Shown piece by piece: positions 1,677 to 28,927 of a stretch of DNA of 42,142 nt (position 1 is its first letter; each line of letters opens with the position of its first letter). The notes below the pieces were generated by a model. The model saw only the letters and a list, made by a program, of their open reading frames with translations, searched no databases and had not been told where the DNA came from. The position numbers were made by a program, and so were the translations under genes. The DNA is from an uncultured Bacteroidales bacterium (GTDB lineage Bacteria; Bacteroidota; Bacteroidia; Bacteroidales; UBA932), in contig ONSU01000002.1 in the NCBI GenBank assembly GCA_900320545.1, positions 1 to 42,142 on the forward strand, read 5' to 3'.

Positions 1677-1708
1677 TTTGCAATCCTTCGTAAAAAGTCT
1701 TATTTTTG
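1677..1708 (+). promoter_or_regulatory. lacI-type gene promoter: TTTG-N20-TATTTTTG
   Basis: TTTG at 1677-1680, a 20-base spacer, and TATTTTTG at 1701-1708 match the Bacteroidota consensus TTTG-N19..21-TAnnTTTG exactly. Transcription would begin about 5-7 bases later, which is at or next to the ATG at 1714, so the mRNA may be leaderless. Confidence 0.7.
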
Positions 1709-1713
1709 CGAAG

Positions 1714-6726: not shown

Positions 6727-6757
6727 TTTGCCAATTCAAAAAAGTTCAGTAAATTAG
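6727..6757 (+). promoter_or_regulatory. Putative promoter TTTG-N19-TAAATTAG for importer-susC-susD
   Basis: TTTG at 6727-6730, a 19-base spacer, then TAAATTAG at 6750-6757, one base off TAnnTTTG. The leader of about 40 bases contains a weak stem (6761-6769 with 6778-6786, two G-U pairs) before the ATG at 6804. Confidence 0.5.
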
Positions 6758-8144: not shown

Positions 8145-8157
8145 TCAATTGCGATTC

Positions 8158-11100: not shown

Positions 11101-11181
11101 CTTCCTTCCATCGACGGCGTGGACAGCAACTTCATCCCGCGTCCGAGGCTTTACACGCTCCGTCTCAGCATCAACTTCTAA
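8158..11181 (+). CDS. susC: SusC-family TonB-dependent outer-membrane transporter
   Basis: 1007 residues. Signal peptide (ends near ISAQ, residue 23), a carboxypeptidase-regulatory-like domain (VKGVVVDAQGPVIGATV and on, about 25-105), a TonB-box-like segment (DDVVVIGYGT), a plug domain with the SusC motifs IRIRGAASLNASNDPL and SVLKDASATAIYGSRAS, then a 22-strand barrel ending in SINF. The protein imports oligosaccharides into the periplasm using TonB energy, with SusD as its lid. The ATG at 8158 starts a normal signal peptide; an ATG at 8149 is an alternative. It lies 12 bases before susD. Starch as substrate is inferred from the surrounding GH13/GH97/MalQ genes. Confidence 0.95.
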   Translation: MKRFLTAVAAVLLLGAFLSPTISAQDGYQVKGVVVDAQGPVIGATVIEQGTANGASTGLDGDYVLTVSSAQAKVEVSCIGYATQVFTASEVPATVTLLEDTEFLDDVVVIGYGTVKKSDMTGSVVAIKADEINRGAVNSPEQMLMGKVAGLLVTPATGQPGASATIRIRGAASLNASNDPLIVIDGVPITSEGGAGMGNPLASVNPNDIESYSVLKDASATAIYGSRASNGVIIITTKKGSQGGGKGVKVRYDGSVSVKQNYQFFNMMTGPQFADFINATPQYAGAAALLGYDGTVYNTNWQKEIYRPAIQTDHNLSVYGGGKVPFRVSAGYNLDQATLKVGENQKANLDFSLAPKLFKDHLSINLNVKGIYQATKWANGGAVGNSMSFDPTKPAYFPEDVTKGDVTFAKGTIWNWYDNVGSPNTMASVNPLSNLYEWIDNNRALRSIGNLQVDYKIHGFEDLRLNANFGYDVAKLDGYKYNKLGSRSARASSPDIATQYGNFVYNTVFEAYADYSHVWGIHNLDVMAGYSWQHNYNKYLNTDYLNMDPKWQDADLYKDDPVNQSEYYLVSFFGRLNYNLMDRYLFTFTVREDASSRFSPKNRWGFFPSAAFAWNIKNENFLKGVDAVDALKFRLGWGRTGQQNGIAYYPYLARYTFSTNPYMQYNMGNDRYATLSPQAYNPNLKWETTETFNVGVDFGFLGERLTGSIEAYYRRTFDLLNEVAAPLGTNFSDRVITNVGTIANKGIELNLNGVIIETKDWHWSVGGNVTFQDIKITKLLQDGGDEKNYQVEVGQTMGANEGYSSVYKTGYAPYTFYLYKQVYYKGEPVFNAVETDQATPTESDRYLTGKSPNPWMFFGLNTRLSWKNLDFSINCHGSIGNYAINKVRKGYASAYGLLDQVSKGYVNNLHNDYLMREWNEPMKVWQEYSDFWIENASFFKIDDINLGYTFKLNKKWMESLRVAASVQNVVTFTKYSGLDPELPSIDGVDSNFIPRPRLYTLRLSINF

Positions 11182-11187
11182 TCAGGA

Positions 11188-12876: not shown

Positions 12877-14760
12877 ATGAAAAGACTCTTTTCTATTTTT
12901 GCAGCAGGGCTGATGGCCGCAGCGGTCATTGTTTCCTGCAACAAGGATCCCCAGGAAGGGGGAGGAGAAGGCGATGAGAAAGCGCCTGTTCTGAAGGCTA
13001 TCGACGGTGCCGTCCTTGACGCCAAGGGTGCTCCTATCACCACTACATTTGAGGCCGCCGACTTCGGTGTCGCCACCAGCATCGGTTACGAACTCGCTGT
13101 CGCCAAGGCGGGTACCGATATGAAGGATGAGGCCGTCGTCAACGCCGACATCGCTGCCGGTAACATCTCGATGAAGCAGGGCAACCTGAGCCTCGCTATC
13201 CAGAAACTTGGTTTCGCGGTCGGTGATGAGGCCGAGGTCGAATTCGCCCTCTATGCCTACATCGGTTCTTCCCGCGGCAAGAACTCTCTTCGTTCCAACC
13301 TCGTGAAGGCGACCTTCACCGTCTGCGCCGCCAAGCCGGACGACAGCGCGCTCGACAAGATCGAGGTGATCGGTGACTTCGACGGCTGGAGCAGCGACGG
13401 TGTCGCCAAAGCCGGTGCTTACATCTACAAGTATGGTGAGGACAATGTCTACACCGGTCTCGTTTACTACAATGCCAAGGCTGTCAATGGCTGGAAACTC
13501 CGTATCCCTACGGCCGACGGCAACTGGGATGACAGCGCCAACTGGGGTATCGACGAGAACGAACTAACCAATGTCAACGCCCAGGCCAAGGAACTCTACG
13601 ATTCCGATCCTACCCATCCGGAGATTAAAGAGATCACGCTTGCCTGCGCCGGTTCCTCCAAGGATATGAAGATCTTCAACCACAACTTCTACTATTGGAT
13701 CTTCGACCGTACCTCCAATAAACTGAAGGTTGACCAGCACGATACCTGGGCAACCCAGAACCAGCCGATGGCATTCGACTATATGTACCTCGTAGGCGAC
13801 TTCAACAGTTGGAAAGAATTCGATGAGAACTCGAAGATGAAGTATATCCCGAAGCAGCACACCTTCTATCTCGACGTAACGCTCGAGGAAGGCAAGGGCC
13901 TCAAGTTCCTGGCCGACGGTCAGGCTGCTGACAAGTGGTATCTCCAGTGGGGTATCGGTGCCGAAGACGGAAAGGCAGCCTACCGGGGTGACAATATCAC
14001 TACGCCTGCAGGCAACGTCCGTGTTTACTTCGACTACAACCATATGGAGTACAGCTTTGACGCGTCTGCCTATGGCACCGAGGAAGAAGGCGGCGTCGAT
14101 GTTGCCGAGCGCGCACTCGACCGTCCGGACGAGTACTTCATCGTCGGCAGCGTCATGGGCAAGACCTGGGATGACCTCGATCTCTCGCTGGGCCTCAACT
14201 CCGAGACGGGCATCTACACCTACTCCGGTCTCTCCTACAAGGTCGGTGACGCCTTCAAGGTCGTCAAGAACCAGAAGGCCGAGTGGTACGGCGTCGGTGC
14301 GATGGAGCCTTACACGGGCACTCGCAACACCCTGACCGGCACTGACAACTTCGAGTTCCAGAAGGCCAGCGGCTTCGACGTCTCCTTTAACCCGACCACC
14401 GGCAAGGTCACCATCGCCGACTGCGCGATCCCTGGCTGGGGCGTCAAGGGCAACATCATGAAAGATGGAAAGGATGACGCGTGGAACTCCACCTTCCCGA
14501 TGAAGCTTGAGGGTGGTATCTGGGTCAGCGACGAACTCGAGATCCTCTATGACGGTGCCAACACCTGGGGCTTCAAGCTTTGTCTCTACGGCAACTGGGA
14601 TGCTGGTGACATCGGCGTCGCCGACGGCACGACTCCTCAGAAGGGCGTGGCCATGCAGGCTGTCAACAAACTTGAAGCCGGGGCCAACTCCAACATCAAC
14701 TTCAATGGCAAGGGCAAGGTCAAATTTGACCCGACCGCTATGACCATTACCATCGAGTAA
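12877..14760 (+). CDS. SusE/SusF-like outer-membrane starch-binding lipoprotein with four CBM modules
   Basis: 627 residues. Lipoprotein signal (VSC, Cys21, then NKDPQ), a short acidic linker, an N-terminal SusE-type Ig-like domain (about 36-150), then four carbohydrate-binding modules: 161-285 (begins KIEVIGDFDGW), 301-394 (MYLVGDFNSW), 418-513 (YFIVGSVMGKTWDDL) and 521-627 (GVKGNIMKDG...). SusE-type proteins usually carry two such modules after the Ig domain and SusF three, so four is high; no second SusE/F gene follows, and this one may do the work of both (inference). Trp residues such as W171, W312 and W431 are candidates for sugar stacking. A terminator follows 14 bases after the stop. 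Confidence 0.85.
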   Translation: MKRLFSIFAAGLMAAAVIVSCNKDPQEGGGEGDEKAPVLKAIDGAVLDAKGAPITTTFEAADFGVATSIGYELAVAKAGTDMKDEAVVNADIAAGNISMKQGNLSLAIQKLGFAVGDEAEVEFALYAYIGSSRGKNSLRSNLVKATFTVCAAKPDDSALDKIEVIGDFDGWSSDGVAKAGAYIYKYGEDNVYTGLVYYNAKAVNGWKLRIPTADGNWDDSANWGIDENELTNVNAQAKELYDSDPTHPEIKEITLACAGSSKDMKIFNHNFYYWIFDRTSNKLKVDQHDTWATQNQPMAFDYMYLVGDFNSWKEFDENSKMKYIPKQHTFYLDVTLEEGKGLKFLADGQAADKWYLQWGIGAEDGKAAYRGDNITTPAGNVRVYFDYNHMEYSFDASAYGTEEEGGVDVAERALDRPDEYFIVGSVMGKTWDDLDLSLGLNSETGIYTYSGLSYKVGDAFKVVKNQKAEWYGVGAMEPYTGTRNTLTGTDNFEFQKASGFDVSFNPTTGKVTIADCAIPGWGVKGNIMKDGKDDAWNSTFPMKLEGGIWVSDELEILYDGANTWGFKLCLYGNWDAGDIGVADGTTPQKGVAMQAVNKLEAGANSNINFNGKGKVKFDPTAMTITIE

Positions 14761-14774
14761 TACAATATTTATGT

Positions 14775-14813
14775 GGAGCGTCGGAGGAATAGGCCGCCGG
14801 CGCTCCTTTTTTT
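14775..14813 (+). terminator. Rho-independent terminator between binding and enzyme genes
   Basis: GGAGCGTCGG (14775-14784) pairs with CCGGCGCTCC (14797-14806) over 10 bp including one G-U pair, and seven T follow (14807-14813). It separates the SusC/D/E-like genes from the enzyme genes and may let only part of the transcription through. Confidence 0.75.
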
Positions 14814-14839
14814 ATTTATCCTTAAACTACAGCGCTGAT

Positions 14840-16531
14840 ATGAAGACCGTATTCCATTTCATGACGGCGACGCTCCTGATGCTGTCGCTATCCTGCACCC
14901 CTTCCGACCAACCCGGCAAAGGCGGGAAACAGACCCCCGCCGGAGAAGGCGGCATCACCTATCAGCTGCTCGTCTATTCTTTCGCCGACGGCATCAAGAA
15001 CGATAAAATCGGCGATATCCAGGGCATCATCGACCACCTGGATTACATCGAGGCGCTCGGGGCAAGCGCCATCTGGCTCTCCCCGATCCACCCCTGCACT
15101 TCGTATCATGGTTACGACGTGACGACAACGGCGGCGTCCCTCGCGGAAGGCCATATCGGCTACGACGAGGTCAACGCAAGATTCGGCAACGACGGAGATG
15201 TGTATCTCCTCTGCCAGGCTGCGCACAAGAAAGGCATCAAGATCTACCTCGACTATGTGCTCAACCACACTTCGAGCCAGCATCCCTGGTTCCTGGACGC
15301 GAAAAAATCCGCGACTTCCAAGTATCGCGACCATTATATTATTTCCTCCAACCCGCAGGCGGATATCACCGCCGGCAAGATCGCCATGATTGCCCGGGAA
15401 GGCAGCAATGGATATGAGGCCAGCCAATGGTACGGAACCGGTGTCGGGTCCGAGAAATATCATTCCCACTTCTGGACGGGCGCTTTCGCCGATCTCAACT
15501 ACGGCGCGGCGGCAACCTGTGAGCAGTCCGCTGCTTTCCAGGCGGTCTGCAAGGCGGCCGAACACTGGATCGATCTCGGCGTGGACGGATTCCGTCTCGA
15601 TGCGGTCCGCCACATCTACCATCACGCCACGACCGATGAGAATCCGATCTTCCTGAAGAAGTTCTACGACTATTGCAATAATTATTATAAGACGAGCGGC
15701 CACGCCGGTGACTTCTATATGGTCGGTGAGAATTTCGAGGGAATCAATTATGTGGCCCCGTATTATGCGGGTCTCCCGGCGCTGTTCGATTTCAGTTTCT
15801 GGTGGAACCTGCGCGATGCCATCAATGCAGGCTCCGGCGCTTCCTTCCCGAAAAAAGTGCTGGATAATCAGGCCAAATATGCCCAATATGCCGCTTCCGC
15901 CGGTTGGAATGCCATCGATGCGACCAAGCTCTCCAACCACGACGAGCAGCGGGTCGGCAGCGATTTCAACAAGGACATCGGCAAAATGAAACTGGCGGCC
16001 TGCGTGCTGCTGACCGCATCCGGAGAACCCTATGTCTATCAGGGCGAAGAACTCGGCTACTGGGGCGTCAAGGAAGGCCGCGGGGACGAATATGTCCGCG
16101 CGCCGATTAACTGGCTCGAGAGCGGCGCCGGCAATGCGACCGGATCGCTGGGTGGCAAGATCGAGCCGGGCATGCTGAACGCAGCCCAATCCGTGGAGAA
16201 TCAGGAGAAGGCTGAAGACTCCATTCTCAACTTATATCGCAAGTTCGGCAAACTCCGGAATCAGTACGCTTCGCTCGGCAAGAACGGCGCGATGTCACAG
16301 CATCCGATATACGGAAGCAGTTCCAAGATTCCGGCGGTGGCCGCCTGGTACCGGACCAGCGGCAGCGAAAAGATGCTGGTGCTGCACAATTTCTCCGCTT
16401 CCGCCGTCTCGCTGACGCTGGAAGATGATGACCTTTCTAACCTGGTCGGTTCCAACGGCCTGGTTCTGGCAATGCCGAAGTACAGCGCAGTCGAACTGGG
16501 CCCCTATGCCTCGGCCGTATTTAAGCAATAA
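14840..16531 (+). CDS. Alpha-amylase lipoprotein, GH13 (SusG-like without CBM58)
   Basis: 563 residues. Lipobox LSLSC (Cys19). GH13 barrel with region I DYVLNH, nucleophile D254 in GFRLDAVRH, acid/base E297 in MVGENF, and D368 in LSNHDEQR; a small all-beta C-terminal domain follows. It cuts alpha-1,4 bonds in starch or maltodextrins. The region FADGIKN...IWLSPIHPCTSYHGYDV closely parallels the amylase domain of the large enzyme at 18935-22387, but there is no inserted CBM58 and no added binding modules. The ATG at 14840 begins a proper signal peptide; an in-frame ATG at 14771 would run through the terminator. It is first in a chain of enzyme genes spaced by 12 bases or fewer. Confidence 0.92.
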   Translation: MKTVFHFMTATLLMLSLSCTPSDQPGKGGKQTPAGEGGITYQLLVYSFADGIKNDKIGDIQGIIDHLDYIEALGASAIWLSPIHPCTSYHGYDVTTTAASLAEGHIGYDEVNARFGNDGDVYLLCQAAHKKGIKIYLDYVLNHTSSQHPWFLDAKKSATSKYRDHYIISSNPQADITAGKIAMIAREGSNGYEASQWYGTGVGSEKYHSHFWTGAFADLNYGAAATCEQSAAFQAVCKAAEHWIDLGVDGFRLDAVRHIYHHATTDENPIFLKKFYDYCNNYYKTSGHAGDFYMVGENFEGINYVAPYYAGLPALFDFSFWWNLRDAINAGSGASFPKKVLDNQAKYAQYAASAGWNAIDATKLSNHDEQRVGSDFNKDIGKMKLAACVLLTASGEPYVYQGEELGYWGVKEGRGDEYVRAPINWLESGAGNATGSLGGKIEPGMLNAAQSVENQEKAEDSILNLYRKFGKLRNQYASLGKNGAMSQHPIYGSSSKIPAVAAWYRTSGSEKMLVLHNFSASAVSLTLEDDDLSNLVGSNGLVLAMPKYSAVELGPYASAVFKQ

Positions 16532-16534
16532 CCT

Positions 16535-17587
16535 ATGAAGAAATTTTTGTTTTTCCTGCCGGCGGTCCTGTTCCTCGCCTGCTGCGGCAAGACGCATGAC
16601 GGCCCCACGGAGCCGGAAGGCCCCGAAGTAATTCATACGCCGGTCCCGGAATTCGCCAAGGGTGCTGACATCAGCTGGGTGACCGAAATGGAGTCGAAGA
16701 ATTATAAATTCTATGCCCAGGACGGCACGCAGACGGAGTGCACGCTGCTGATGAAGCAGCTTGGCTGCAACGCCGTCCGCTACCGCGTCTGGGTAAATCC
16801 GGCAGGCGGCTGGTGCAACAAGACGGATGTCCTCGCAAAAGCCCGCCGCGCCCAGGCCCTGGGACTTGCCATCATGATCGACTTCCATTATTCCGATTCC
16901 TGGTGTGACCCGGGCAAGCAGCCGGTCCCCGCAGCATGGGCGGGAAAGAATCTCAACGAAATGATCACAGCCGTGTCGGAGCACACGACCGATGTGCTGA
17001 CCCTGCTCAAAAACGAGGGAATCGATGTCGCCTGGGTACAGGTCGGCAACGAGACCAATACGGGAATGCTCTGGGAGACAGGCCGCCTCAGCAGCAGCAA
17101 TTATTCTAATTTTTGCCTGCTGACCAATGCCGGGTACAGTGCTGTCAAGGCTGTCTATCCCGATGCCCTTGTCATCCTGCATCACTCCAATGCGCAGGAC
17201 CTGAACGGCAACAAGTGGTTCTACAATCTTGTCAAGGCCGGTAAAGCCAATTACGATATGATCGGCCTGTCGCTCTATCCGTCGTATTGGAATGACGGCG
17301 GCTATCCGGACTGGACGCCGTACTGCACCTCCGCCGTAGCAAATTTCAAGACCCTGCACGATACCTATTCCAAGCCCGTGATGCTGGTCGAATTCGGTAT
17401 GCCGGCCAGCGAGCCTGCCAAAGCCAAGGCCGCCCTGCAGTTCGTGCTGGACGGCGTGAAGGATTACGACTGGTTCAAAGGCGTATTCTACTGGGAACCC
17501 GAGTCCGAGCAGAGCCGCAACAATTATGGCTACGGCGCCTTCAGCAGCGGAAAACCCACGGCTGCACTGGATCCTTTCAAGAATTAA
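16535..17587 (+). CDS. Endo-beta-1,4-galactanase, GH53, lipoprotein
   Basis: 350 residues. Lipobox-like LAC (Cys16). A single GH53 TIM barrel: GADISWVTEME near 44-54, acid/base E173 in VQVGNETNTG, nucleophile E286 in MLVEFGMP, and FYWEPE near the end. GH53 enzymes cut beta-1,4-galactan, the side chain of rhamnogalacturonan I (type I arabinogalactan). I know no starch role for this family, so its place between two GH13 genes, 3 and 12 bases from its neighbours, is odd. The GH2 beta-galactosidase-like gene at the end of the same operon is a natural partner. Confidence 0.92.
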   Translation: MKKFLFFLPAVLFLACCGKTHDGPTEPEGPEVIHTPVPEFAKGADISWVTEMESKNYKFYAQDGTQTECTLLMKQLGCNAVRYRVWVNPAGGWCNKTDVLAKARRAQALGLAIMIDFHYSDSWCDPGKQPVPAAWAGKNLNEMITAVSEHTTDVLTLLKNEGIDVAWVQVGNETNTGMLWETGRLSSSNYSNFCLLTNAGYSAVKAVYPDALVILHHSNAQDLNGNKWFYNLVKAGKANYDMIGLSLYPSYWNDGGYPDWTPYCTSAVANFKTLHDTYSKPVMLVEFGMPASEPAKAKAALQFVLDGVKDYDWFKGVFYWEPESEQSRNNYGYGAFSSGKPTAALDPFKN

Positions 17588-17599
17588 ACAGCAACCTAT

Positions 17600-18925
17600 A
17601 TGAAGAAATTTTTTGCTTTTGCCATTGTCGCGCTTGCCGCATTTGCGTGCTGCAAGAAGACGCAGACCGCGCATCATCCGGAATGGACCTACGACTCCGT
17701 GATGTACGAAGTAAACATCCGCCAGTTCTCCCCGGAGGGGACTTTCGCCGGTGTGGAAGCCCAGCTCCCCCGCCTCAAGGAACTCGGCGTGGACATCCTG
17801 TGGCTGATGCCGATGTATGAGATCGGCACCGAGGGCCGCAAGGGTACGCTCGGGTCCTACTATGCCATCTCGGACTACTGCAAGGTCAATCCGGAATTCG
17901 GAACGATGGAGGATTTCGACCGCCTGCTTGCCAAGGCCCACGAGCTCGGGTTCAAGGTCATCCTCGACTGGGTCGCCAATCAGACGGCCCCCGACCATAT
18001 CTGGATGACGCAGCGCTCCGCCGACTTCTACGAGCGCGACTCCCTCGGCAACGCCATTTATGAATACGACTGGACCGACACCCGGAGCCTCAACTACGAG
18101 AACGAGGCCGTCTGGGCAGCTCAGGACAGCTGCATGCGTTTCTGGCTGCAGAAGGGCGTGGACGGCTTCCGCTGCGACGCAGCCGGCGAAATGCCTGCCA
18201 AATTCTGGCAGAGCGTGATGCCGAAGCTGAATGCCGACTATCCGGAGGCCTACTTCCTCGCCGAAGCGGAACGGGAGAACCTTTCCAATCCGGACAGCAC
18301 CTTCGACGCCAATTACGCCTGGGAACTGCACCACATCCTCAACGATGTGGCCAGCCATAAGAAGACCGTCACGGACATCAAGGATTATCTCTCGCGCGAT
18401 GCGCAGAAATTCCCCGAGACGGCCTACCGCCTGACCTTCACCTCCAACCACGATGAGAATTCCTGGGCCGGTACCGAATTCGAGCGCATGGGCGAGGCGG
18501 CCAATGCCTGCGCCGTTCTGTGCTTCACCCTCCCGAAGAGCCAGCCGCTCATCTACACCGGACAGGAGATCGGTCTGAGCCGCCGTCTGGCCTTCTTCGA
18601 GAAGGACCCCATTACCGACTGGAGCGACAATGAATACACGGAATTCTTCAAGAAACTCGTGCAGCTCAAGCATGACCATCCCGCGCTGGATGCCGGCGAG
18701 CGGGGAGGCGTTTACGCCGAGATCGAGGCCCCGGAGGGCGTGATGGCCTTCTCCCGCGAGAAGAAGGGCGACAAGGTAATCGTCTTCGCCAACTTCAACG
18801 AGACCGACGCCTCCGTCACGCTCCCGTCGGACGGGAAATACACGGAACTCTTCACCGGCAACCCCGTCGAGGGCGGCTCCGCCCAAGTTGTCCGTCCCGG
18901 CGGCTACCTTGTATTTTGTAAATAA
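17600..18925 (+). CDS. GH13 alpha-amylase-family lipoprotein with altered region I
   Basis: 441 residues. Lipoprotein-type signal (FACC near residues 15-18). Compact GH13 barrel: nucleophile D193 in GFRCDAAGE, acid/base E222 in FLAEAE, D285 in TSNHDENSW; all three catalytic acids are present. Region I reads DWVANQTAPDH, with Gln128 where nearly all amylases have the His that contacts the -1 sugar. The C-terminal beta domain is short. Activity on alpha-glucan is expected from the family, but the Gln may change specificity or efficiency. It lies 12 bases after the GH53 gene and 9 before the giant amylase. Confidence 0.88.
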   Translation: MKKFFAFAIVALAAFACCKKTQTAHHPEWTYDSVMYEVNIRQFSPEGTFAGVEAQLPRLKELGVDILWLMPMYEIGTEGRKGTLGSYYAISDYCKVNPEFGTMEDFDRLLAKAHELGFKVILDWVANQTAPDHIWMTQRSADFYERDSLGNAIYEYDWTDTRSLNYENEAVWAAQDSCMRFWLQKGVDGFRCDAAGEMPAKFWQSVMPKLNADYPEAYFLAEAERENLSNPDSTFDANYAWELHHILNDVASHKKTVTDIKDYLSRDAQKFPETAYRLTFTSNHDENSWAGTEFERMGEAANACAVLCFTLPKSQPLIYTGQEIGLSRRLAFFEKDPITDWSDNEYTEFFKKLVQLKHDHPALDAGERGGVYAEIEAPEGVMAFSREKKGDKVIVFANFNETDASVTLPSDGKYTELFTGNPVEGGSAQVVRPGGYLVFCK

Positions 18926-18934
18926 ACTTTTCAT

Positions 18935-21900
18935 ATGAAAAAGTTGTGGATCGTCGCCCTGGCGGCGTGGTTACCGTTTGTCCTCTCCTGCAACCGTGAG
19001 AACGAAGTGCAGGGGTCTTTGGTCTTTGATGAAAATCAGCTGACCATCCCCGCATCGGGCGGCGAGAAGACCGTGTCGCTGACGACGGATCTGGTCTGGA
19101 CCGGCGAGAGTTCCGCGCCCTGGCTGACCCTGGAGCCCCGTTCCGGCAAAGGTTCCGCCTTGCTGACCGTCCGGGCGGAGGCCAACACGACGGGCGAGGT
19201 GCGCAAGGCGACGGTGTTGCTGAAGGCAACGGGCAACACCCGCATTACGGGCAGCGTTTCCGTCTTGCAGGAGGCAGGGAGCGGAGAAGATCCCGTCGAC
19301 GTGATCCTCGGCGACGAAACGGCCTATGCCGTCATCGGAAGCTGGGACTGGGACCATGGCGACAAGCCCATGCGGGAATTCGGCAACTGGGTGGTATACC
19401 AGAATCTGCATCTGACGCCTACCCTGAAATTCAAAATCCGCAAGGACGCATCCTGGACCGAGAACTGGGGTGCCGGCGTGCAGGGCGAACCGGGCGACGG
19501 CCAGGAGGTCCCGGTCGACAAGCGGATCACCATGGGACAGGACGGGAAAGACATGCATGTCGGAGCGGAAGGAGACTATGATCTCTATTTCAGTCCCCGG
19601 GCGCTGATCCTGTATTTGATGCCCGCCGGAGCCCCCTGGACGCACAACAGCGAAGGGGATGCCGAGCCCGACGAGCCGGGAGATGACCCGGAAGACCGCC
19701 CGGTCCCGGATAAGCCGGGAGCCCCTACCGGCTGGTCGCTGATCGGCTCCTGGGATGAATGGGGATCGGATATCGAACTCCTGGATTATGGCAATTTCGC
19801 CATGGCGAAAAGTGTGGAATGGCCCTCGAACGTGAGCTTCAAGATCCGCAAGAATCACGGCTGGGACGAGAGTTTCGGCAGCGGAAAATATGTAGACGGC
19901 GGGAAGACGGAAATACAGAAGGAGACCCGCGTCAACCTCACCCCCGAAGGCAACAACATCCTGCTCAAGGCGGCAGGCACCTACGACGTTTATTTCTCCG
20001 AAGCGGCCCGCATCCTCTATGTGATGCCGGAAGGCGCGGAGTGGACCCACAACAGCGAGGGGACCTTCATCAACCGCGCTCCGGACGAGAGTCCGTGGTC
20101 CATCGTCGGAACGCACGTCTCATGGGATGCCACTGTCGGTACGAAGATGTATGTCGACGGCCACTGGCATATCGCCAAAGAGGTGTCACTGACTTCCACG
20201 GATCAGTTCAAGTTTGTCTGCAACGGCTCCTGGGACGTAAATCTCGGCTACGGTAACTACGTTGACGGCTCTTCGACCCGGGTCGGGACAGACACCAGAC
20301 TGGAACTGAACCAGGGCGGCAACAATATGACCCTCGGCGCGGCCGGTTCCTATGACTTCTACCTCTCCCCCGAGAACAACATCGCCTACATCCTTCCCGC
20401 CGGGGCGGAATTCTCCCACGTGGCGGAAGGAAAGGCAGGGTTCCTGCTCGGCGGAAGCGCTCTGACAGAAACCGTCACAACCAAGCGATCCGGGCTGACT
20501 TATCAAATCAATGTTTACAGTTTCGCCGACAGCAATGGCGACGGCTGGGGCGACTTCAAAGGCATCGAGCAGCATCTCAATTACATCGACGCGCTCGGCT
20601 GCACGGCGATTTGGCTCTCTCCCATCCATCCGGCGCAGTCCTATCATGGCTATGACGTGAAGGACTACACCAAGGTCAATCCACGCTTCGGCACGGAGGC
20701 CGATTTCCAGAGTCTGGTGACGGCTGCCCACGCAAAGGGCATCAAAGTGTATCTCGACTATGTGGTGAACCATACCGGCAACGAGCACTTCTGGTTTGAA
20801 GACTGCAAGAAAAACGGACCGGAGAGTCCTTATTGGAGTTACTATACCTTCTCGAAGAATCCTTCGACGGAATGGAGGACCCTTCCCCAGACGGCTTCCA
20901 GCGGCTATGACAGCGGACAGTGGTTCCAGGTCACCGTCGGCGTGGGCGGCAAGGTCCGCTACCGGCTCGACCTGGACTGGACCAGTCCCGCAACTCCCAA
21001 ACTGACGGCTACGAAGACCACCGAAGCCGTCACCTCCGGCGGCCATAGCGGCTACTATCTCTGGTGGGGAGACTCCCAGTGCACGGAGTTCCTCCAGGGA
21101 TCCGGTGCCGGACTCTATTATATGGTGCTCGACTTCGAGTCCGAATGGGGTTGCCTGATCCGCGAAGGCGAAAACGGCGGCACCTGGACCCCGGGCAAGA
21201 AATGGGGGGTCCAGAGTCCTTCCGATCAGCTTGAGGACGGGGTTCCGATGACACTTTACCACAATGTTTCCGACAACGATGCGGTTTACAACATCATGAT
21301 GCCCCAGGGCGAAACCTGGCAGTATCATTCCTCGCAGTACACGGGCGTATTCGCCGACATCAGCTACGGTCCCGTCTCGTCCTGCGAGACTTCCGGCGCC
21401 TTCAAGGATATTACCGCCAGCGTCGACAAGTGGCTAGGCCTCGGCGTGGACGGCCTCCGGCTCGATGCCGTGAAGCACGTTTACAACAACTCCACTTCCG
21501 ACGAGAATCCGGAATTCTGGCGGAAGTTCTATGACCGGGTCAATCAGACCTACCGCACGAACCATTCGGAGGATATCTTTATGGTAGGAGAGAACCTGTC
21601 CTGGGCCGGTGACTGCGCGCCTTACTACAAAGGCCTCCCGTCGCTGTTCAACTTCAGTTTCTGGTGGGATCTGAGGAATGTGCTCAACAACGAGAATGCC
21701 TTTGTGGAAGGCAAGAAGTTCGGCGCCCGCCTCTCCGAGATCCGCGGCTGGTTCGAGGGGGTCCGGCCGGGCAAGTGGGTTGATTCCATCAAACTTTCCA
21801 ACCACGATGAGGACCGTACCGCGTCTTCGCTCGGCAAATTTACGCCGAAAATCGGTCTCGCGGCCTGCTTCCTGCTGACTTCCGGCGGCAAGCCGTTCAT

Positions 21901-22387
21901 TTATCAGGGCGAGGAACTCGGCTACTGGGGCACAAAGGGCAACGGGGATGAATTTATCCGCACCCCGATCATGTGGAAGGCCGACGGAACCGGTATGGCC
22001 AGGGCCGGCGTCAACAACAAGGTGGATGCCGCAATGCTGACTTCCGAAATCTCCGTGGAATCGCAGGCGGCCGACAACAATTCCATCCTCGCGCTGTACC
22101 GCGCCTTCGGCAAGGCGATGAACCTGTCGCCCGCCCTCGCGGACGGCTGGATCGAAAACGACGACAGCAACAGCGACAACCGTATCGCCTCGTGGTACAT
22201 CCACCAGAACGGTGTCGACAAAGTTTGCCTTGTTATCCACAATGTCACCGGCAGTACTGTCACGGTGGACCGGAGTGCGCATCAGAACAACCTCTCGAAC
22301 ATCCTTATCTCCAACGGAAAAGTCTCCGTAAGCGATTACTCCGTCACGATGGGACCGTACAGCTCGGTTGTCTTCGCGCTCAATTGA
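18935..22387 (+). CDS. Giant modular amylase: BACON + three SusE/F-type CBMs + GH13 with inserted CBM58 (SusG-like)
   Basis: 1150 residues, against about 690 for classical SusG. Order: lipobox LSC (Cys19, then NRENE), BACON domain (about 28-115, with APWLTLEPRSGKG), three related binding modules (131-241, 267-376, 387-498), each opening VIGSWDW / LIGSWDEW / IVGTHVSW and closing with a P-A/E-G-A-x-(W/F)-(T/S)-H motif, then a GH13 amylase (519-1060) with a CBM58-like insertion (about 656-795, rich in Trp and Tyr: SGYYLWWGDS) in the position known from SusG, and a C-terminal beta domain. Catalytic D844 (LRLDAV), E886 (MVGENL), D958 (LSNHDED). Acidic residues after the lipid Cys suggest surface exposure. 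It should bind and cut insoluble starch at the cell surface. The added modules look recruited from SusE/F-type proteins. Confidence 0.92.
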   Translation: MKKLWIVALAAWLPFVLSCNRENEVQGSLVFDENQLTIPASGGEKTVSLTTDLVWTGESSAPWLTLEPRSGKGSALLTVRAEANTTGEVRKATVLLKATGNTRITGSVSVLQEAGSGEDPVDVILGDETAYAVIGSWDWDHGDKPMREFGNWVVYQNLHLTPTLKFKIRKDASWTENWGAGVQGEPGDGQEVPVDKRITMGQDGKDMHVGAEGDYDLYFSPRALILYLMPAGAPWTHNSEGDAEPDEPGDDPEDRPVPDKPGAPTGWSLIGSWDEWGSDIELLDYGNFAMAKSVEWPSNVSFKIRKNHGWDESFGSGKYVDGGKTEIQKETRVNLTPEGNNILLKAAGTYDVYFSEAARILYVMPEGAEWTHNSEGTFINRAPDESPWSIVGTHVSWDATVGTKMYVDGHWHIAKEVSLTSTDQFKFVCNGSWDVNLGYGNYVDGSSTRVGTDTRLELNQGGNNMTLGAAGSYDFYLSPENNIAYILPAGAEFSHVAEGKAGFLLGGSALTETVTTKRSGLTYQINVYSFADSNGDGWGDFKGIEQHLNYIDALGCTAIWLSPIHPAQSYHGYDVKDYTKVNPRFGTEADFQSLVTAAHAKGIKVYLDYVVNHTGNEHFWFEDCKKNGPESPYWSYYTFSKNPSTEWRTLPQTASSGYDSGQWFQVTVGVGGKVRYRLDLDWTSPATPKLTATKTTEAVTSGGHSGYYLWWGDSQCTEFLQGSGAGLYYMVLDFESEWGCLIREGENGGTWTPGKKWGVQSPSDQLEDGVPMTLYHNVSDNDAVYNIMMPQGETWQYHSSQYTGVFADISYGPVSSCETSGAFKDITASVDKWLGLGVDGLRLDAVKHVYNNSTSDENPEFWRKFYDRVNQTYRTNHSEDIFMVGENLSWAGDCAPYYKGLPSLFNFSFWWDLRNVLNNENAFVEGKKFGARLSEIRGWFEGVRPGKWVDSIKLSNHDEDRTASSLGKFTPKIGLAACFLLTSGGKPFIYQGEELGYWGTKGNGDEFIRTPIMWKADGTGMARAGVNNKVDAAMLTSEISVESQAADNNSILALYRAFGKAMNLSPALADGWIENDDSNSDNRIASWYIHQNGVDKVCLVIHNVTGSTVTVDRSAHQNNLSNILISNGKVSVSDYSVTMGPYSSVVFALN

Positions 22388-22397
22388 CGCACGTTGT

Positions 22398-24284
22398 ATG
22401 AGAATAAGACCCTTCATTCTTGCATCGCTGGCCTTTCTTATGGCGGGGTGCAATGTCGTATCGACTCCCCCGGACGTGCCGGATGCCGCTCCGGGCCGCA
22501 TCGAGCGGGTGGAGCCGCCTTCGTGGTGGACCGGAATGCAGACACCCCTTCAAATCCTTGTCAAAGGAGAAAAGATTTCCGCTTATAACGTATCGATTGC
22601 CGGAGGGAAAGGCGTACGGGTAAAGTCCGTCACGCCGGGCGACAGCCCCGACTATGTGTTTGTCGATGTCACCGTCTCCGCATCGGCCAGTCCCGGGACG
22701 TATTGGCTGATATTTGAAACCCGGGAAGAATCCTTCAAGATTTCCTATGAGATTGGCGCGCGCTCCCGGGAGCCTCGGAAGAGCTTTTCCTCCGAAGACA
22801 TGATCTACCTGATCATGCCCGACCGGTTTGCGAACGGGGACCCTGCCAATGACACGGTGGAAGGCCTTCCTGACGGGGCGGACCGCAGTGCGGATTTTGG
22901 CCGGCACGGGGGAGACCTTCGGGGAATGATGGATCATCTGGACTATATCGAAGGGCTTGGCGCCACGGCCGTGTGGTCCACGCCACTGCTGCTCGATAAC
23001 CAGCCGGAGGCCTCCTATCACGGTTATGCCTGCTGCGATTACTATCAGATCGATCCCCGCTACGGTGACAATGAACTGTACCGTGCGTTTGTGGACTCCT
23101 GCCATACGCATGGGTTGAAGGTCGTGATGGATGTGGTTACCAATCATTGCGGAACCTGTCACTGGTGGATGGAAAACCCGCCGTTCAAGGACTGGTATCA
23201 CGTCTTTCCGACTTATACCGGGACTAATGTCCTCTTCTCGGCCTATATGGATCCGCACGCTTCCGAATATGACCGCAACCTGCAGGAAAGCGGCTGGTTC
23301 GTCCCTTCGATGCCCGACATGAACCTGGACAATCCGTTCGTACTCAAGTATTTCCAGCAATGGGCCGTCTGGTGGACGGAATACGCGGGCCTGGACGGAT
23401 TCCGCGTGGATACCTATCCGTACAACGAGCCCGGGCCGATGAGCCGCTGGTGCGAGGCCGTCCGGAAGGAATATCCGTGGATGAATATCGTCGGCGAATG
23501 CTGGGATACCGAAGTGAGCCAGCTGGCCTACTGGCAAAGCGGCGCGAAGAACCACGACGGCTTCGACAGTCATCTGCCCTGTATCATGGACTTCCCGCTC
23601 CGGGAATCGCTGGTCGCGGCCCTCAACGAGGATACGCCCGGATGGGGACAGGGAATGGCGCGGGTCTATGGTTCCATAGCCCACGATTTCGCGTATGCGG
23701 ATCCGGAGAATATGATGATTTTCCTCGCCAACCACGACCACTCCCGGATGGCGGACGTCCTGCAGCACGATCCGGCACGGATGAAGATCGGACTGGCGCT
23801 TCTCGCTACGCTCAGGGGTATTCCGCAGTTGTATTACGGCGATGAAATGTTTTTCGCGGCCGACGGCGGAAGGGACAATGACGGTGCCAAACGGATCGAT
23901 TTCCCGGGAGGCTGGGAGGGAGATCCCGTGGATTATTTCACGCCGGAAGGGCGTGAAAAAGGTGGCGTGTCGGACCTCTATGAATATACGGCCCGCCTGT
24001 TCAACTGGCGCAAGGGATGTCCGGTCATCCATCACGGCAAGACCCTTCATTTCCTGGGAAGGGACAATACCTACGCTTATTTCAGGTACAATGAAACGGA
24101 CAAGGTTTTTGTTTTTGTCAATAACGCGACGGAAGAAGTGACCGTTCCCTGGTCGCACTATGCCGAAATCGTTCCCGGCCCGGCTGAAGCGACGGATGTG
24201 CTGACAGGAGAGAAAATCCTTCTTTCCGACGAAATGCGGATTCCCGCCAAGTCAGTTATTGTGGCAGAATTACTATCTTTGTAA
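22398..24284 (+). CDS. susA: Neopullulanase/cyclomaltodextrinase-like GH13 (SusA type)
   Basis: 628 residues. Lipobox MAGC (Cys18) followed by NVVSTP without acidic residues, so probably periplasmic-facing. An N-terminal cyclomaltodextrinase-type beta domain (about 35-130: PPSWWTGMQTPLQILVKG) precedes the GH13 barrel (IYLIMPDRFANGDPAND; region I DVVTNH; nucleophile D338 in FRVDTYPYNE; acid/base E367 in IVGECWD; D447 in LANHDHSR) and a C-terminal beta domain. The family hydrolyses pullulan, cyclodextrins and maltodextrins. Length and architecture match SusA. The ATG at 22398 gives a normal signal; an earlier in-frame ATG at 22368 lies inside the previous gene. Confidence 0.92.
   Translation: MRIRPFILASLAFLMAGCNVVSTPPDVPDAAPGRIERVEPPSWWTGMQTPLQILVKGEKISAYNVSIAGGKGVRVKSVTPGDSPDYVFVDVTVSASASPGTYWLIFETREESFKISYEIGARSREPRKSFSSEDMIYLIMPDRFANGDPANDTVEGLPDGADRSADFGRHGGDLRGMMDHLDYIEGLGATAVWSTPLLLDNQPEASYHGYACCDYYQIDPRYGDNELYRAFVDSCHTHGLKVVMDVVTNHCGTCHWWMENPPFKDWYHVFPTYTGTNVLFSAYMDPHASEYDRNLQESGWFVPSMPDMNLDNPFVLKYFQQWAVWWTEYAGLDGFRVDTYPYNEPGPMSRWCEAVRKEYPWMNIVGECWDTEVSQLAYWQSGAKNHDGFDSHLPCIMDFPLRESLVAALNEDTPGWGQGMARVYGSIAHDFAYADPENMMIFLANHDHSRMADVLQHDPARMKIGLALLATLRGIPQLYYGDEMFFAADGGRDNDGAKRIDFPGGWEGDPVDYFTPEGREKGGVSDLYEYTARLFNWRKGCPVIHHGKTLHFLGRDNTYAYFRYNETDKVFVFVNNATEEVTVPWSHYAEIVPGPAEATDVLTGEKILLSDEMRIPAKSVIVAELLSL
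24274..24281 (+). promoter_or_regulatory. Possible internal -7 box (TATCTTTG) before the GH97 gene
   Basis: TATCTTTG fits TAnnTTTG and ends 6 bases before the GH97 ATG, inside the last codons of the susA-like gene. There is no TTTG at the expected -33 distance, so it may be chance. Confidence 0.3.
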
Positions 24285-24287
24285 GTT

Positions 24288-26540
24288 ATGAAAAAGATGA
24301 TACTTTGGGTGGCGGCCGCCCTTCTTCTGGCCATTTCCTGCGGCGAAACGGTCCGCAGCCTGGATGAAACCCTCCTGACCAGCCCGGACGGAGGACTGAC
24401 GCTCCAATTCGGACTCTCCGGATCCGGAAGGCCTTACTACGCCCTCAAACGGGGCGGGGAGGATGTCATTCTCCCGAGCGGACTCGGATTCGACCTCACG
24501 GACGGCACCTCGCTCAAAGATGGATTCGCCGTTGTAAGCGTCGAGAAGGACAGTCTGGACGAGACCTGGACGCCCGTATGGGGCGAAGAGGACAAGATCC
24601 GGAATCATTACAACGAAGCCCTGGTTTCCCTCAAGGACAGCCTCGGCAACGCGATGAACATCCGGTTCCGCCTGTATGACGACGGCCTCGGTTTCCGCTA
24701 CGAATTCCCGCTGGAGAACAAACTGGTGTACTTCAACATCCGGGAAGAACTGACCGAATTCGCCCTCACCGGCGACCATACGGCCTGGTGGGTGCCCGGC
24801 GACTACGATTCGCAGGAATACAACTTCAAGGAGTGCCGCCTTTCGGAGATCAGCCGCTACTGCGAGGAGATGCGGATCCCGAACGCCTCGCAGGAGGGTT
24901 ACTCCCCCTGGGGCGTGCAGACGGCCATCCAGATGAAGACCGACGCGGGTCTGTACCTGAATATTCACGAGGCGGCCGTGCTGGATTACCCCGCCGCCAA
25001 CCTGCTGTACGATCCGGCCCGGAAGACCTTCCAGATTCACCTGACTCCGGATGCGCAGGGCGTCAAGGGCCGCCTCCAGGCCCCTTGCAAGACCCCGTGG
25101 AGGACAATGATGGTATGCCCCAGTGCTACCGACGTACTCGCCTCCCGTCTGATCCTCAATCTCAACGACCCCTGCGTCATCGAGGACGTGAGCTGGATCC
25201 ATCCCGTCAAATATGTCGGCGTATGGTGGGAGATGATCACCCACAAGACGAAGTGGTCTTATACCGATGACTATCCCTCCGTGCAGCTCGGTGTCACCGA
25301 CTATGCCGCCTCGACTCCGCACGGGAAGCACGGTGCCAACAACGAGAATGTCCGCCGCTACATCGACTTCGCCGCCGAGAACGGCTTCGACGCCGTCCTG
25401 GTGGAGGGCTGGAACGAAGGCTGGGAGGACTGGTTCGGCAAGAAGAAAGACTTTGTCTTCGACTTCCTTACGCCGTATCCCGACTTCGACCTGCCGGCGT
25501 TGAACGCCTACGCGCACCAGAAGGGTGTCCGGCTGGTGATGCACCACGAGACCTCCTCATCCACGCTGAATTACGAACGCTGGATGGAGAAGGCCTACAC
25601 GCTGATGAACCAGTACGGCTATGACGCGGTGAAGAGCGGCTATGTCGGGTTCATCATTCCCTACGGCGAGCGCCACAACAGCCAGCCGACTATCAATCAT
25701 TATCACTATGCCATTACGGAGGCGGCGAAGCACCACATCATGGTGAACGCCCACGAGGCCGTCCGCCCGACGGGCCTGTGCCGCACCTGGCCGAATATGA
25801 TCGGCAACGAATCCGCGATGGGAACCGAATTCCGCGCGCGGATCAACCCCGGCCACACCGCCGTCCTGCCGTTCACCCGTCTCCAGGGCGGTCCGATGGA
25901 TTACACCCCGGGCATCTTCGAGCAGGATATGTCCATCACCGCACCCGGCCAGGAGGGCAAGATGCACCATACGCTCTGCAACCAGCTGGGTCTCTATGTG
26001 ACCTTCTACTCGCCGCTGCAGATGGCGGCCGACCTCCCGGAGAATTACGAGCGCTTCCCGGACGCCTTCCAGTTCATCAAGGACGTCGCGGTGGACTGGG
26101 ACAGAAGCATTTATCTCCAGGCGGAGCCCCGGAAGGTCATCGTGACAGCACGTCATCCGAAACTCTCGACGCTGAATGCATCCGCCGAATCGCTAGCAAA
26201 ACTCCCGGACGGCCGGAAGGATGTCATCAGCGGTGCCGCACGCTTTGTCTACGCCCTGCCGGAAGATGCGAAATCACTTAAGGGCGCCACGCCCCACGAC
26301 GTGTGGTATGTCGGCGGTGTCGGCGGTCCCGAGGAGCAGACGGTGACCTTTACGCTCGATTTCCTCAAGCCGGGCGCGCAGTATGAGGCGACGGTCTATG
26401 CCGACGCACCGGAGGCCGATTACGAGACGGCACCGCAGGCCTACACCATCACCCGCGAGACGGTGGACGCTTCCAAACAGTACACCCTCCGCATCGCACG
26501 CGGCGGCGGATTCGCCATTTCGTTGCGCGAGATCCTATGA
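24288..26540 (+). CDS. susB: GH97 alpha-glucosidase (SusB type)
   Basis: 750 residues. Lipobox AISC (Cys18). N-terminal GH97 beta-sandwich (about 25-290: DGGLTLQFGLSGSGRPYY), TIM barrel (WWEMITHKTKWSY onward) and C-terminal beta domain. The glutamates of the inverting subgroup are present: E421 in HHETSS, E490 in NAHEAVRPTG and E514 in MGTEF, each 18 positions before the SusB residues E439, E508 and E532 that I recall as base, base and acid. Inverting GH97 enzymes release glucose from maltooligosaccharides. It starts 3 bases after the susA-like stop and overlaps the next gene by 4 bases. Confidence 0.93.
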   Translation: MKKMILWVAAALLLAISCGETVRSLDETLLTSPDGGLTLQFGLSGSGRPYYALKRGGEDVILPSGLGFDLTDGTSLKDGFAVVSVEKDSLDETWTPVWGEEDKIRNHYNEALVSLKDSLGNAMNIRFRLYDDGLGFRYEFPLENKLVYFNIREELTEFALTGDHTAWWVPGDYDSQEYNFKECRLSEISRYCEEMRIPNASQEGYSPWGVQTAIQMKTDAGLYLNIHEAAVLDYPAANLLYDPARKTFQIHLTPDAQGVKGRLQAPCKTPWRTMMVCPSATDVLASRLILNLNDPCVIEDVSWIHPVKYVGVWWEMITHKTKWSYTDDYPSVQLGVTDYAASTPHGKHGANNENVRRYIDFAAENGFDAVLVEGWNEGWEDWFGKKKDFVFDFLTPYPDFDLPALNAYAHQKGVRLVMHHETSSSTLNYERWMEKAYTLMNQYGYDAVKSGYVGFIIPYGERHNSQPTINHYHYAITEAAKHHIMVNAHEAVRPTGLCRTWPNMIGNESAMGTEFRARINPGHTAVLPFTRLQGGPMDYTPGIFEQDMSITAPGQEGKMHHTLCNQLGLYVTFYSPLQMAADLPENYERFPDAFQFIKDVAVDWDRSIYLQAEPRKVIVTARHPKLSTLNASAESLAKLPDGRKDVISGAARFVYALPEDAKSLKGATPHDVWYVGGVGGPEEQTVTFTLDFLKPGAQYEATVYADAPEADYETAPQAYTITRETVDASKQYTLRIARGGGFAISLREIL

Positions 26541-28927
26541 GCGGGAGGGCGTTGCTGATTCCCCTGCTGCTTGTCAGTCTGACGGCCTTTTCCCAGCCTT
26601 CGGGCCGTGTGTCGTGGAATGAGGGGTGGACTTTTGAAAAGGATGGAACGGAGCGCGTCCTCGACCTGCCGCACGACTGGGGCGTGGAAGGACCTTTCCG
26701 CCAGGAATATCCCGGAGAAACCGGCAAACTCGCGTGGTGGGGCGAAGCGACTTACCGCAAGACCCTGCAGGTCACCGAAACCCAGCTCTCCGGACGCATC
26801 AGTCTGGAAGTTGACGGTGCGTTTTCCAACGCCGTGGTGAATGTAAACGGTACCCCTGCCGGCGGATGGCCTTACGGCTACTCGTCCTGGTCCGTCGATC
26901 TGACATCCCGCCTCCGTCCCGGAGAGAACCGGATCGAAATCCGTCTTGACAACAAGCCGGAGAGTTCCCGCTGGTATCCCGGCGGCGGCATTTACCGCAA
27001 CGTATGGCTTCGTTATAGTGGCAAGTTGTCGGTCGCACATTGGGGCACTTTTATCACGACAAAAACCGAGGGAGACAAGGCTGTGGTTACCCAGCGAGTC
27101 ACCGTCGCGACGGACAAGCCCCGGATGGCGAAGATCACGACGCAGATTCTCCGGGATGGGAAAGTGATCACCGCGAAGACTAGTGAGGAACCGGTCTATG
27201 ACGGCCGCATCGTAATGCAGGAATTCGAAATCGATCATCCGCAGTTATGGACCCCGTCCTCGCCCGAAATGTATATCGCCCGTACGACGATCGCCGGGGA
27301 TGGCGCGGACGGCGAAGTCTATGAAACCCCCTTCGGCATCCGCGACGCGGAATTCAGGGCGGACGGATTCTACCTCAACGGAGAGAAAACCTTCCTGAAA
27401 GGCGTCTGTCTTCATCACGACGCCGGCGCGCTGGGCGCAGTCTGGAACGAAGACGCCTGGATCCGCCGGTTCCTCAAACTCAAGGAGATGGGCTGCAACG
27501 CCATCCGCTGCAGCCACAATCCGCCCGCACCGGAACTCCTGGACCTCTCGGACCGGATGGGCTTCCTGGTGATGGACGAACTCACCGACACCTGGACCTG
27601 GCCCAAGAAAGACAACGGCTACGCCTCCCTGTTCGGGGAATGGGCCGAGAAAGACCTCGTCGCGATGATCCGCCGCGACCGGAACCATCCTTCCGTCATC
27701 CTGTGGAGCGTCGGGAACGAATGCGGCGAACAGGGCGACAGCACCCGCTGGTGGATCCCGCAAATGCTGACGGATATCTGTCACCGCGAAGATCCGACCC
27801 GCCTCACCACCGCCGGCAACGACAACCCCTGGGCGGCCGGCCAGCCTTACGCCGCCACTCTGGACGTCTATGGCTTCAATTACAAGCCGCACTTGTATCA
27901 GGAGTTCGTGGAGAGCCATCCGGGACAGCCCGTACTGGGTTCGGAAACGTCTTCCTGCATTTCGACCCGGGGCTATTACCGCTTCCCGGTGGAGCAGGAC
28001 AAGGGCCGCGGATGGGCGATGGAGCCGCCTTTCCAGGTAAGTTCCTACGACCTCTACGCCCCGGGCTGGGCTTCGTGCCCGGACTATGAATGGGCGTATG
28101 AGGACAAAGTTTCCGCCTGCGCCGGCGAATTCGTCTGGACGGGTTATGACTACCTCGGAGAGCCGACTCCCTTCAATATGGATCCTTCCGTGTTTACGAA
28201 CTTCCATACGGAAGAGGAGAAAGAGGCCTACCGCCGGATGGTGGAGAGCTGGGGGCAGACCATCAGCGACGTCCCCCTCCCCTCCCGCAGCAGTTATTTC
28301 GGCATCCTGGACCTGGCCGGCTTCCCCAAGGACCGCTTCTGGCTGTATCAGGCCCGCTGGCGTCCCGACCTGCCGTCGGCCCATATCCTGCCGCACTGGA
28401 CATGGCCCGGCCGCGAAGGCGCAATCACCCCGGTCCATGTCTACACCTCTGGGGATGAGGCGGAACTGTTCGTGAACGGAAAGTCACAGGGTCGCAAGGC
28501 GAAAGAAGGTTACCGGATCGTGTGGAACGATGTCCGCTATGCTCCCGGCACGGTGGAGGTCGTCGCATACAAAGACGGCCGGGAATGGGCGCGCGACAAA
28601 GTGCGCACCGCCGGGAAGGCCGCCAGGGCGGCTGCTTCCGTCGACTACGACGGAACGGACCTGATCTATGTGACGGTGGATATTCTCGACAAAGCCGGCG
28701 TGCTTGTTCCGGATGCGGCCCCTGTCCTTTCATTTGAAGTGAAAGGGCCGGGCATTATCCTCGCCACCGATGCCGGCGACCCGACTTCACACATTCCTTT
28801 TTACAGTCATTCCCTGCCCGCTTTCCACGGCAAGGCATCCGTGATTGTCCGCCGGACGGCCCCGGGCGCCCTTACCGTGAGAGCCCGCGCGGCGGGGCTG
28901 AAACCGGCCGTGCTCATCATTCCATAG
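26537..28927 (+). CDS. GH2 beta-galactosidase-type hydrolase with DUF4982 domain
   Basis: 796 residues. Signal peptide without lipobox (LTAFSQ, about residue 20), so periplasmic or exported. Sugar-binding N-terminal domain (residues 20-150), Ig-like domain, GH2 TIM barrel with acid/base E395 in SVGNECGEQ and nucleophile E470 in LGSETSS, then a DUF4982-type domain (about 615-690: HVYTSGDEAELFVNGKSQGR) and a final Ig-like domain. This layout is usual for exo-beta-galactosidases, though GH2 also includes glucuronidases and mannosidases. It would release galactose from products of the operon's GH53. ATGA overlap with the GH97 gene implies translational coupling. Its end overlaps the convergent GH28-CE15 gene by 11 bases. 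Confidence 0.85.
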   Translation: MSGRALLIPLLLVSLTAFSQPSGRVSWNEGWTFEKDGTERVLDLPHDWGVEGPFRQEYPGETGKLAWWGEATYRKTLQVTETQLSGRISLEVDGAFSNAVVNVNGTPAGGWPYGYSSWSVDLTSRLRPGENRIEIRLDNKPESSRWYPGGGIYRNVWLRYSGKLSVAHWGTFITTKTEGDKAVVTQRVTVATDKPRMAKITTQILRDGKVITAKTSEEPVYDGRIVMQEFEIDHPQLWTPSSPEMYIARTTIAGDGADGEVYETPFGIRDAEFRADGFYLNGEKTFLKGVCLHHDAGALGAVWNEDAWIRRFLKLKEMGCNAIRCSHNPPAPELLDLSDRMGFLVMDELTDTWTWPKKDNGYASLFGEWAEKDLVAMIRRDRNHPSVILWSVGNECGEQGDSTRWWIPQMLTDICHREDPTRLTTAGNDNPWAAGQPYAATLDVYGFNYKPHLYQEFVESHPGQPVLGSETSSCISTRGYYRFPVEQDKGRGWAMEPPFQVSSYDLYAPGWASCPDYEWAYEDKVSACAGEFVWTGYDYLGEPTPFNMDPSVFTNFHTEEEKEAYRRMVESWGQTISDVPLPSRSSYFGILDLAGFPKDRFWLYQARWRPDLPSAHILPHWTWPGREGAITPVHVYTSGDEAELFVNGKSQGRKAKEGYRIVWNDVRYAPGTVEVVAYKDGREWARDKVRTAGKAARAAASVDYDGTDLIYVTVDILDKAGVLVPDAAPVLSFEVKGPGIILATDAGDPTSHIPFYSHSLPAFHGKASVIVRRTAPGALTVRARAAGLKPAVLIIP

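Follow-up and report, generated by a model that had tools for sequence, protein, structure and literature searches.

GH53 endo-galactanase-type genes recur in Bacteroidales starch utilization loci, where they may help to unmask starch

A polysaccharide utilization locus (PUL) is commonly taken to serve a single glycan. Enzymes of glycoside hydrolase (GH) family 53 normally cut pectic beta-1,4-galactan, and we know of no GH53, GH2 or extra GH13 gene in the sus starch locus of Bacteroides thetaiotaomicron. Here, we describe a starch locus that includes an intact GH53 gene. It is located in a stretch of 42,142 nucleotides (the window; positions 1-42142 of contig ONSU01000002.1) from the metagenome-assembled genome (MAG) of an uncultured Bacteroidales bacterium (2.55 Mb, 58 contigs, 93% complete). 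Our analysis indicates that this combination recurs, that it arose more than once and that the GH53 probably contributes to access to starch.

The window locus shares with the B. thetaiotaomicron sus locus genes for SusC, SusD, a SusE-like protein, SusG with carbohydrate-binding module CBM58, a SusA-like GH13 and a GH97; unlike sus, it has a LacI-type regulator, a major facilitator superfamily (MFS) transporter and a GH77 alongside. With the galactan PUL BT4667-BT4673 of the same species, it has in common a GH53, whose closest solved structure is BT4668, and the presence of a GH2. However, that PUL has its own SusC/D and a hybrid two-component system (HTCS) regulator (PMC5238430), whereas the window has a starch-side SusC and a GH2 of another clade than the GH2 found beside GH53 in other loci. 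BT4668 is active on potato galactan and releases mainly galactobiose from suitable galacto-oligosaccharides (PMC5238430). The nearest described arrangement is the starch PUL of Xylanibacter ruminicola KHP1, for which Table 1 of the source lists a GH53; like the window locus it includes GH13, GH77, GH97 and CBM20, and it differs by a 114.6 kb insertion that splits it and by a table entry with CBM26 and no GH2 (PMC11107044). The whole KHP1 starch PUL is reported to be induced exclusively by starch, and pectic galactan to induce an arabinan PUL (PMC11107044). Hence, a GH53 in a starch PUL is already in print. Our open-literature searches found no discussion of GH53 in starch loci, and the KHP1 text available to us carries no comment on it (PMC11107044). 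As far as the literature was searched, what is new is the recurrence of the arrangement, its separate recruitments, the importer exchange and a clade motif with an Arg in place of an aromatic residue.

According to Pfam, genes for GH77, MFS, SusC, SusD, SusE-like, GH13, GH53, GH13, SusG-type BACON-CBM58 GH13, SusA-like, GH97 and GH2 proteins follow one another in the same direction from 4271 to 28927, and this run contains all the components of a sus-type starch PUL: a SusC/SusD pair with a SusE-like protein, SusG-type and SusA-like GH13s and a GH97. From MFS to GH2, no intergenic gap exceeds 54 bases and all except one are of 12 bases or fewer (with the SusA-like start at 22398). The tight spacing that an earlier, sequence-only reading of the window had claimed is thus borne out: 3 bases precede the GH53 gene and 12 follow it, 9 precede the SusG-type gene (18935) and 3 the GH97 gene, and the GH97 and GH2 genes overlap by 4 bases. 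The same reading had placed GH53 and GH2 interleaved with GH13, GH97 and SusA-like genes between 16535 and 28927. These genes are there, and the GH53 gene is intact and part of one operon; however, GH2 is the last gene, the fifth after GH53, and the run extends upstream to the MFS gene at 6804 and perhaps to GH77 at 4271. Judging from the sequence, the genes are probably co-transcribed.

The window GH53 matches PF07745 with 265.6 bits (cutoff 24; E 7e-79) over profile positions 2-309 of 340, in a frame without stops. Its residues E173 and E286 align with E165 and E266 of IaGal, so that the acid/base and nucleophile Glu are present, and all catalytic and -2 subsite residues are kept. The predicted fold is the GH53 barrel, and GH53 and other barrel enzymes are among the structures listed as its matches. 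The protein has a lipobox-like leader and would be a surface enzyme that hydrolyzes galactan. The gene has a GC content of 0.569 (0.741 at third positions), similar to that of its neighbors.

The synteny search for GH53 inside sus-like loci, which the earlier reading had proposed as a check, was carried out and the arrangement recurs. Including the window, 21 starch loci carry a GH53, the 20 others being L035, L036, L044, L050, L056, L060, L064, L066, L072, L073, L074, L075, L076, L078, L079, L084, L150, L181, L200 and L262 (the duplicates L071, L077, L202 and L223 are left out of the counts). Gene context was assessed by blastp against the window proteins for 40 regions with GH53 matches in the genus, the best 80 named loci of a scan and 20 more regions, of which a family search of 249 genomes (57 matches listed) supplied 19, together with 15 of the 19 matches of a search of 393 genomes of the order. 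The eight remaining matches of the genus were also examined: L262 (genome G051) is a starch locus with the motif described below, and the seven others either are not starch loci or lie on short contigs on which no starch gene was seen. L050 and L074 were recognized by Pfam only, beside GH13 genes; since the similarity-based labels missed these two, other rows labelled as non-starch may conceal divergent starch neighbors. In 18 of the 21 loci, the GH53 gene lies directly 3' of a SusG-type GH13 gene, with gaps of up to 137 bases; the exceptions are L074, where a different GH13 precedes GH53, L150, where an X25-domain protein does so, and L050, which starts at a contig end. Nine named records among the best 80 have the arrangement (L072, L073, L074, L075, L076, L078, L079, L084 and L150), and the titles of six of them refer to the gut of herbivores (roe deer abomasum twice, goat omasum, horse feces, water buffalo rumen and yak omasum).

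Within the genus, 11 of the 61 genomes sampled have a starch-locus GH53 (G000, G008, G009, G015, G019, G030, G043, G051, G054, G057 and G059), which makes it an optional part of these loci. Among the 61 genomes, 35 have a GH53 match, 41 a match to the SusA-like C-terminal domain and 31 both. GH53 lies within 10 kb of a SusA-like match in eight genomes, a count read by hand from the match tables, versus 0.53 expected under uniform placement (P 1e-7); without the window, seven genomes remain (P 1.5e-6). Chance placement is therefore rejected, under a null that is generous since sugar genes cluster anyway. Starch loci also occur without GH53: 44 SusA-like matches lie away from any GH53 and, among the 20 regions examined, there are four (L248, L249, L250 and L251) in which at most 173 bases separate a SusG-type gene from the starch gene that comes after it. 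In L254, a piece of a CotH-like protein (10235-11631) is located between the SusG-type and SusA-like genes, in the slot that GH53 has in related loci.

In a careful tree of 46 GH53 rows, 18 of the 20 starch-locus GH53 included and three stand-alone GH53 form one clade (bootstrap 100; SH-aLRT, the Shimodaira-Hasegawa-like approximate likelihood ratio test, 98), and L044 and L150 fall outside it; the GH53 of L262 is in no tree. A quick tree of 120 rows (126 GH53 less six removed by length) agrees: one 19-row clade (99) takes in 14 of the 16 rows that had been labelled starch at that point. A single origin of the starch-locus GH53 was rejected by the approximately unbiased (AU) test: joining L044 and L150 to the whole clade, three stand-alone relatives included, gave p 3e-47 (L044 alone, 9e-50; L150 alone, 3e-11), values that presume groups named before the tree was seen. 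With L044 and L150 both outside the clade and a single origin rejected, GH53 was recruited at least three times. L150 has a SusA-like GH13, an X25-domain protein and a GH13 with CBM48 in its neighborhood. For the three stand-alone relatives (L067, L069 and L070), the stretch examined contained no window-like starch or SusC/D gene; in L070, the two neighbors that were scanned encode a PPDK-type protein and an S41 peptidase.

The importers of these loci belong to two starch SusC/D lineages, A (the window, L066, L075 and L181, with L073 by its SusD) and B, and GH53 co-occurs with both. The GH53 found with lineage A importers do not form a single clade (AU p 1.5e-116). For instance, L181 has a lineage A importer, yet its GH53 is nested among those of L056, L076, L084 and L200, with which it shares the gene order SusG, GH53, SusA-like, GH97. 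On the evidence of the importer and GH53 trees, the simplest account would be that importers were swapped while GH53 stayed with the enzymes. Carbohydrate genes do cluster, and GH53 could have been carried into these loci by shuffling, with no role in starch use; its patchy presence in the genus and the variable GH2, which is of two clades, would fit this. However, a GH53 that keeps the same slot in most loci, with intact frames and conserved catalytic residues, and that was recruited at least three times and into the company of two importer lineages makes such passive carriage very improbable.

The clade has a distinctive signature. All 20 members of the tree clade that were fetched (including the three stand-alone relatives) carry the motif WEPE[SA]ExxR[NC]xY, as do the window GH53 and that of L262, and the 139 other GH53 rows (135 distinct, of which 130 have a WEP strand) all lack it. 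The motif offers a means of telling main-clade starch-locus GH53 apart from other GH53. The position of R328 in the window protein is occupied by Trp (29) or Tyr (8) in all 37 other GH53 compared, a set chosen by hand and drawn mostly from loci with GH2 or SusC/D. R328 appears to lie in the loop after strand 8, corresponding to the loop that carries the -3 subsite Trp of IaGal (PMC8447715; the equivalence is ours). This Arg in place of an aromatic residue suggests that specificity may have moved, the clade enzymes cutting another beta-galactoside or a mixed glycan tied to starch, or partly binding starch. In its strongest form, this would be a starch-dedicated subfamily with a rebuilt distal subsite (R328, WEPESExxRN) that has ceased to be a general galactanase and either docks on starch or attacks a beta-galactosidic glycan associated with starch granules or with their cell walls, an idea that we regard as doubtful. 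In this respect, a GH53 galactanase of Cellvibrio japonicus that has no CBM is reported to have bound corn starch in a pulldown, a result that its authors considered spurious (PMC4978508). Changed specificity, kept in play by R328, is nevertheless unlikely in either form: the catalytic and -2 residues are all conserved, a clade motif may simply persist by descent, three members that have it lie outside starch loci, and the separately recruited L044 and L150 lack it, so that it is not required for a position in a starch locus.

The single SusC/D pair of the window operon (8149-12822) looks starch-type, as the sequence-only reading had noted. In the SusC tree, those of 16 GH53-bearing starch loci are split from those of 23 other GH53 loci, hand-chosen and without starch genes (SH-aLRT 99). 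The window SusC lies on the opposite side of this branch from these 23; by this measure, the window does not have the galactan-type SusC/D expected of a PUL of the BT4667-BT4673 type. The SusD tree is less clean, requiring two changes because of a shift of L091; it agrees for the window SusD and is weaker at its base. The PDB entry nearest to the window SusD is 3jys, followed by SusD of B. thetaiotaomicron (3ck7), and its score on the NCBIfam SusD model is 187 bits, far under the cutoff of 725. No galactan-type importer was found elsewhere in this 93% complete MAG with one SusC query, that of the galactan locus L195, whose best match in the genome is the window SusC itself (39% identity; the next, 35% over full length).

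GH2 genes are less constant than GH53. They are found in operon direction in 8 of the 21 loci, window included, and on the other strand only in L073; in the 12 others, no GH2 was found in the stretch examined 3' of GH53, which was 4.5-10 kb in 11 loci and 1.1 kb in L262. In a quick tree of 91 GH2 rows with some long branches, from which that of L074 was omitted as too short, five starch-locus GH2 form one clade (99) that is placed with GH2 from other GH53 loci, a sign that the GH53-GH2 pair may have moved in together. The window GH2 instead joins those of L044 and L073 (100) and is separate from the main group of GH2 from GH53 loci; its membership of the galactan-type GH2 is thus rejected and, being of a different clade, it was replaced or gained separately. 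At E 1e-220, a family search of 149 genomes found two relatives of the window GH2 besides its own genome (G144 and G082), with no window-like starch genes adjoining them according to blastp.

Two uses of galactan can be weighed against these data. GH53 could make galacto-oligosaccharides outside the cell, to be imported by the single SusC/D and finished by GH2 while starch is also eaten. The GH2 of the window operon has beta-galactosidase relatives, the genome encodes a galactokinase, the window GH53 is the sole GH53 match of its genome (as in 8 of the 11 carriers of the genus), and these points leave some weight to such dual harvest; so do the match of the L195 importer to the window SusC and the five loci in which GH53 and GH2 seemingly moved together. 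However, the SusC separation, the loci without a GH2 found and the induction of the KHP1 starch PUL by starch only (PMC11107044) speak against it, and absences from an incomplete MAG are soft. Hence, dual harvesting of starch and galactan is rather unlikely, and less likely than unmasking of starch. The suggestion of a dual locus or of a SusC/D pair with wider specificity, made in the sequence-only reading, is accordingly less supported than its other proposal, the stripping of galactan around starch. This latter, prompted by a galactan-type enzyme in a starch operon, is also our best explanation now that the arrangement is known to recur, the function itself being deduced. We give a probability of roughly one half to this reading, in which GH53 acts as an endo-galactanase at the cell surface, is made with the starch enzymes and uncovers the starch of tissue rich in pectin. 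When starch is encountered, the GH53 lipoprotein would be produced together with the surface starch enzymes and would cut the pectic beta-1,4-galactan that lies in the walls of plant cells storing starch, whereby SusG-type amylases and SusC/D would gain access to starch. Feeding would be secondary: where present, a periplasmic GH2 may use galactose from incoming galacto-oligosaccharides. This clearing of galactan outside the cell is favored by the starch-only induction in KHP1, by the loci in which no GH2 accompanies GH53 and by the co-occurrence of GH53 with either importer lineage. Moreover, strong labelling for beta-1,4-galactan is reported for cassava walls, from which alpha-amylase released about 17% more glucose once a wall-degrading mixture was added (PMC6626134).

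Several points weigh against the unmasking of starch. The cassava test used an enzyme mixture and not galactanase alone (PMC6626134); the KHP1 GH53, known from its table listing, may be of another clade, and the activity and expression of the window GH53 are predicted. Furthermore, the clade members L067, L069 and L070 lie outside starch loci, 50 of the 61 genomes sampled in the genus (many of them incomplete MAGs) have no starch-locus GH53 found, and the Arg of the main clade may reflect a shift in specificity. A starch locus that repeatedly gains a wall enzyme suggests that loci may be built around food as it comes, i.e. starch inside walls, and not around a single polymer. It also calls for caution: galactan use should not be called from GH53 counts in rumen or gut metagenomes.

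Table. Features of the starch locus and its surroundings in the window
Feature	Position	Strand	Basis and remarks
LacI-family regulator, possible regulator of the locus	1678..2760	+	Pfam LacI and Peripla_BP_4; role predicted
GH77 4-alpha-glucanotransferase with CBM20	4271..6706	+	Pfam; perhaps start of the run
Promoter-like site 5' of the MFS gene	6728..6755	+	Consensus scan, weak: 10 sites vs 5.9 in shuffles
MFS sugar transporter	6804..8144	+	Pfam
SusC-like TonB-dependent importer (lineage A; starch loci have A and B)	8149..11181	+	NCBIfam OMP_RagA_SusC; tree
SusD-like glycan-binding lipoprotein	11188..12822	+	Pfam; PDB 3jys, 3ck7
SusE-like surface glycan-binding protein	12877..14760	+	Pfam PF14292
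GH13 SusG-type alpha-amylase, directly 5' of GH53	14771..16531	+	Pfam
GH53 endo-beta-1,4-galactanase-type lipoprotein; E173 acid/base, E286 nucleophile, WEPESEQSRN with R328	16535..17587	+	
GH13 alpha-glucan hydrolase, lipoprotein-like leader	17600..18925	+	Pfam; sequence
SusG-like GH13 with BACON and CBM58	18935..22387	+	Pfam
SusA-like cyclomaltodextrinase/neopullulanase	22398..24284	+	Pfam; PDB 1h3g, SusA 9fyz; probable start ATG at 22398
GH97 alpha-glucosidase type	24288..26540	+	Pfam
GH2 beta-galactosidase type, other clade than GH2 beside GH53 elsewhere	26537..28927	+	Pfam; PDB 5t98, 9bey; tree

The unit is closed by a convergent gene on the minus strand (28917-31358), which encodes a fusion of a GH28 polygalacturonase-type enzyme with a glucuronoyl-esterase-like domain (PF22244). 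This pectin-type enzyme adjoins the starch operon and has no blastp match in the other starch loci fetched. Elsewhere among the GH53 regions, L051 (1633-3801, 723 aa) and L052 (8926-10893, 656 aa) each encode a protein with two tandem GH53 matches.
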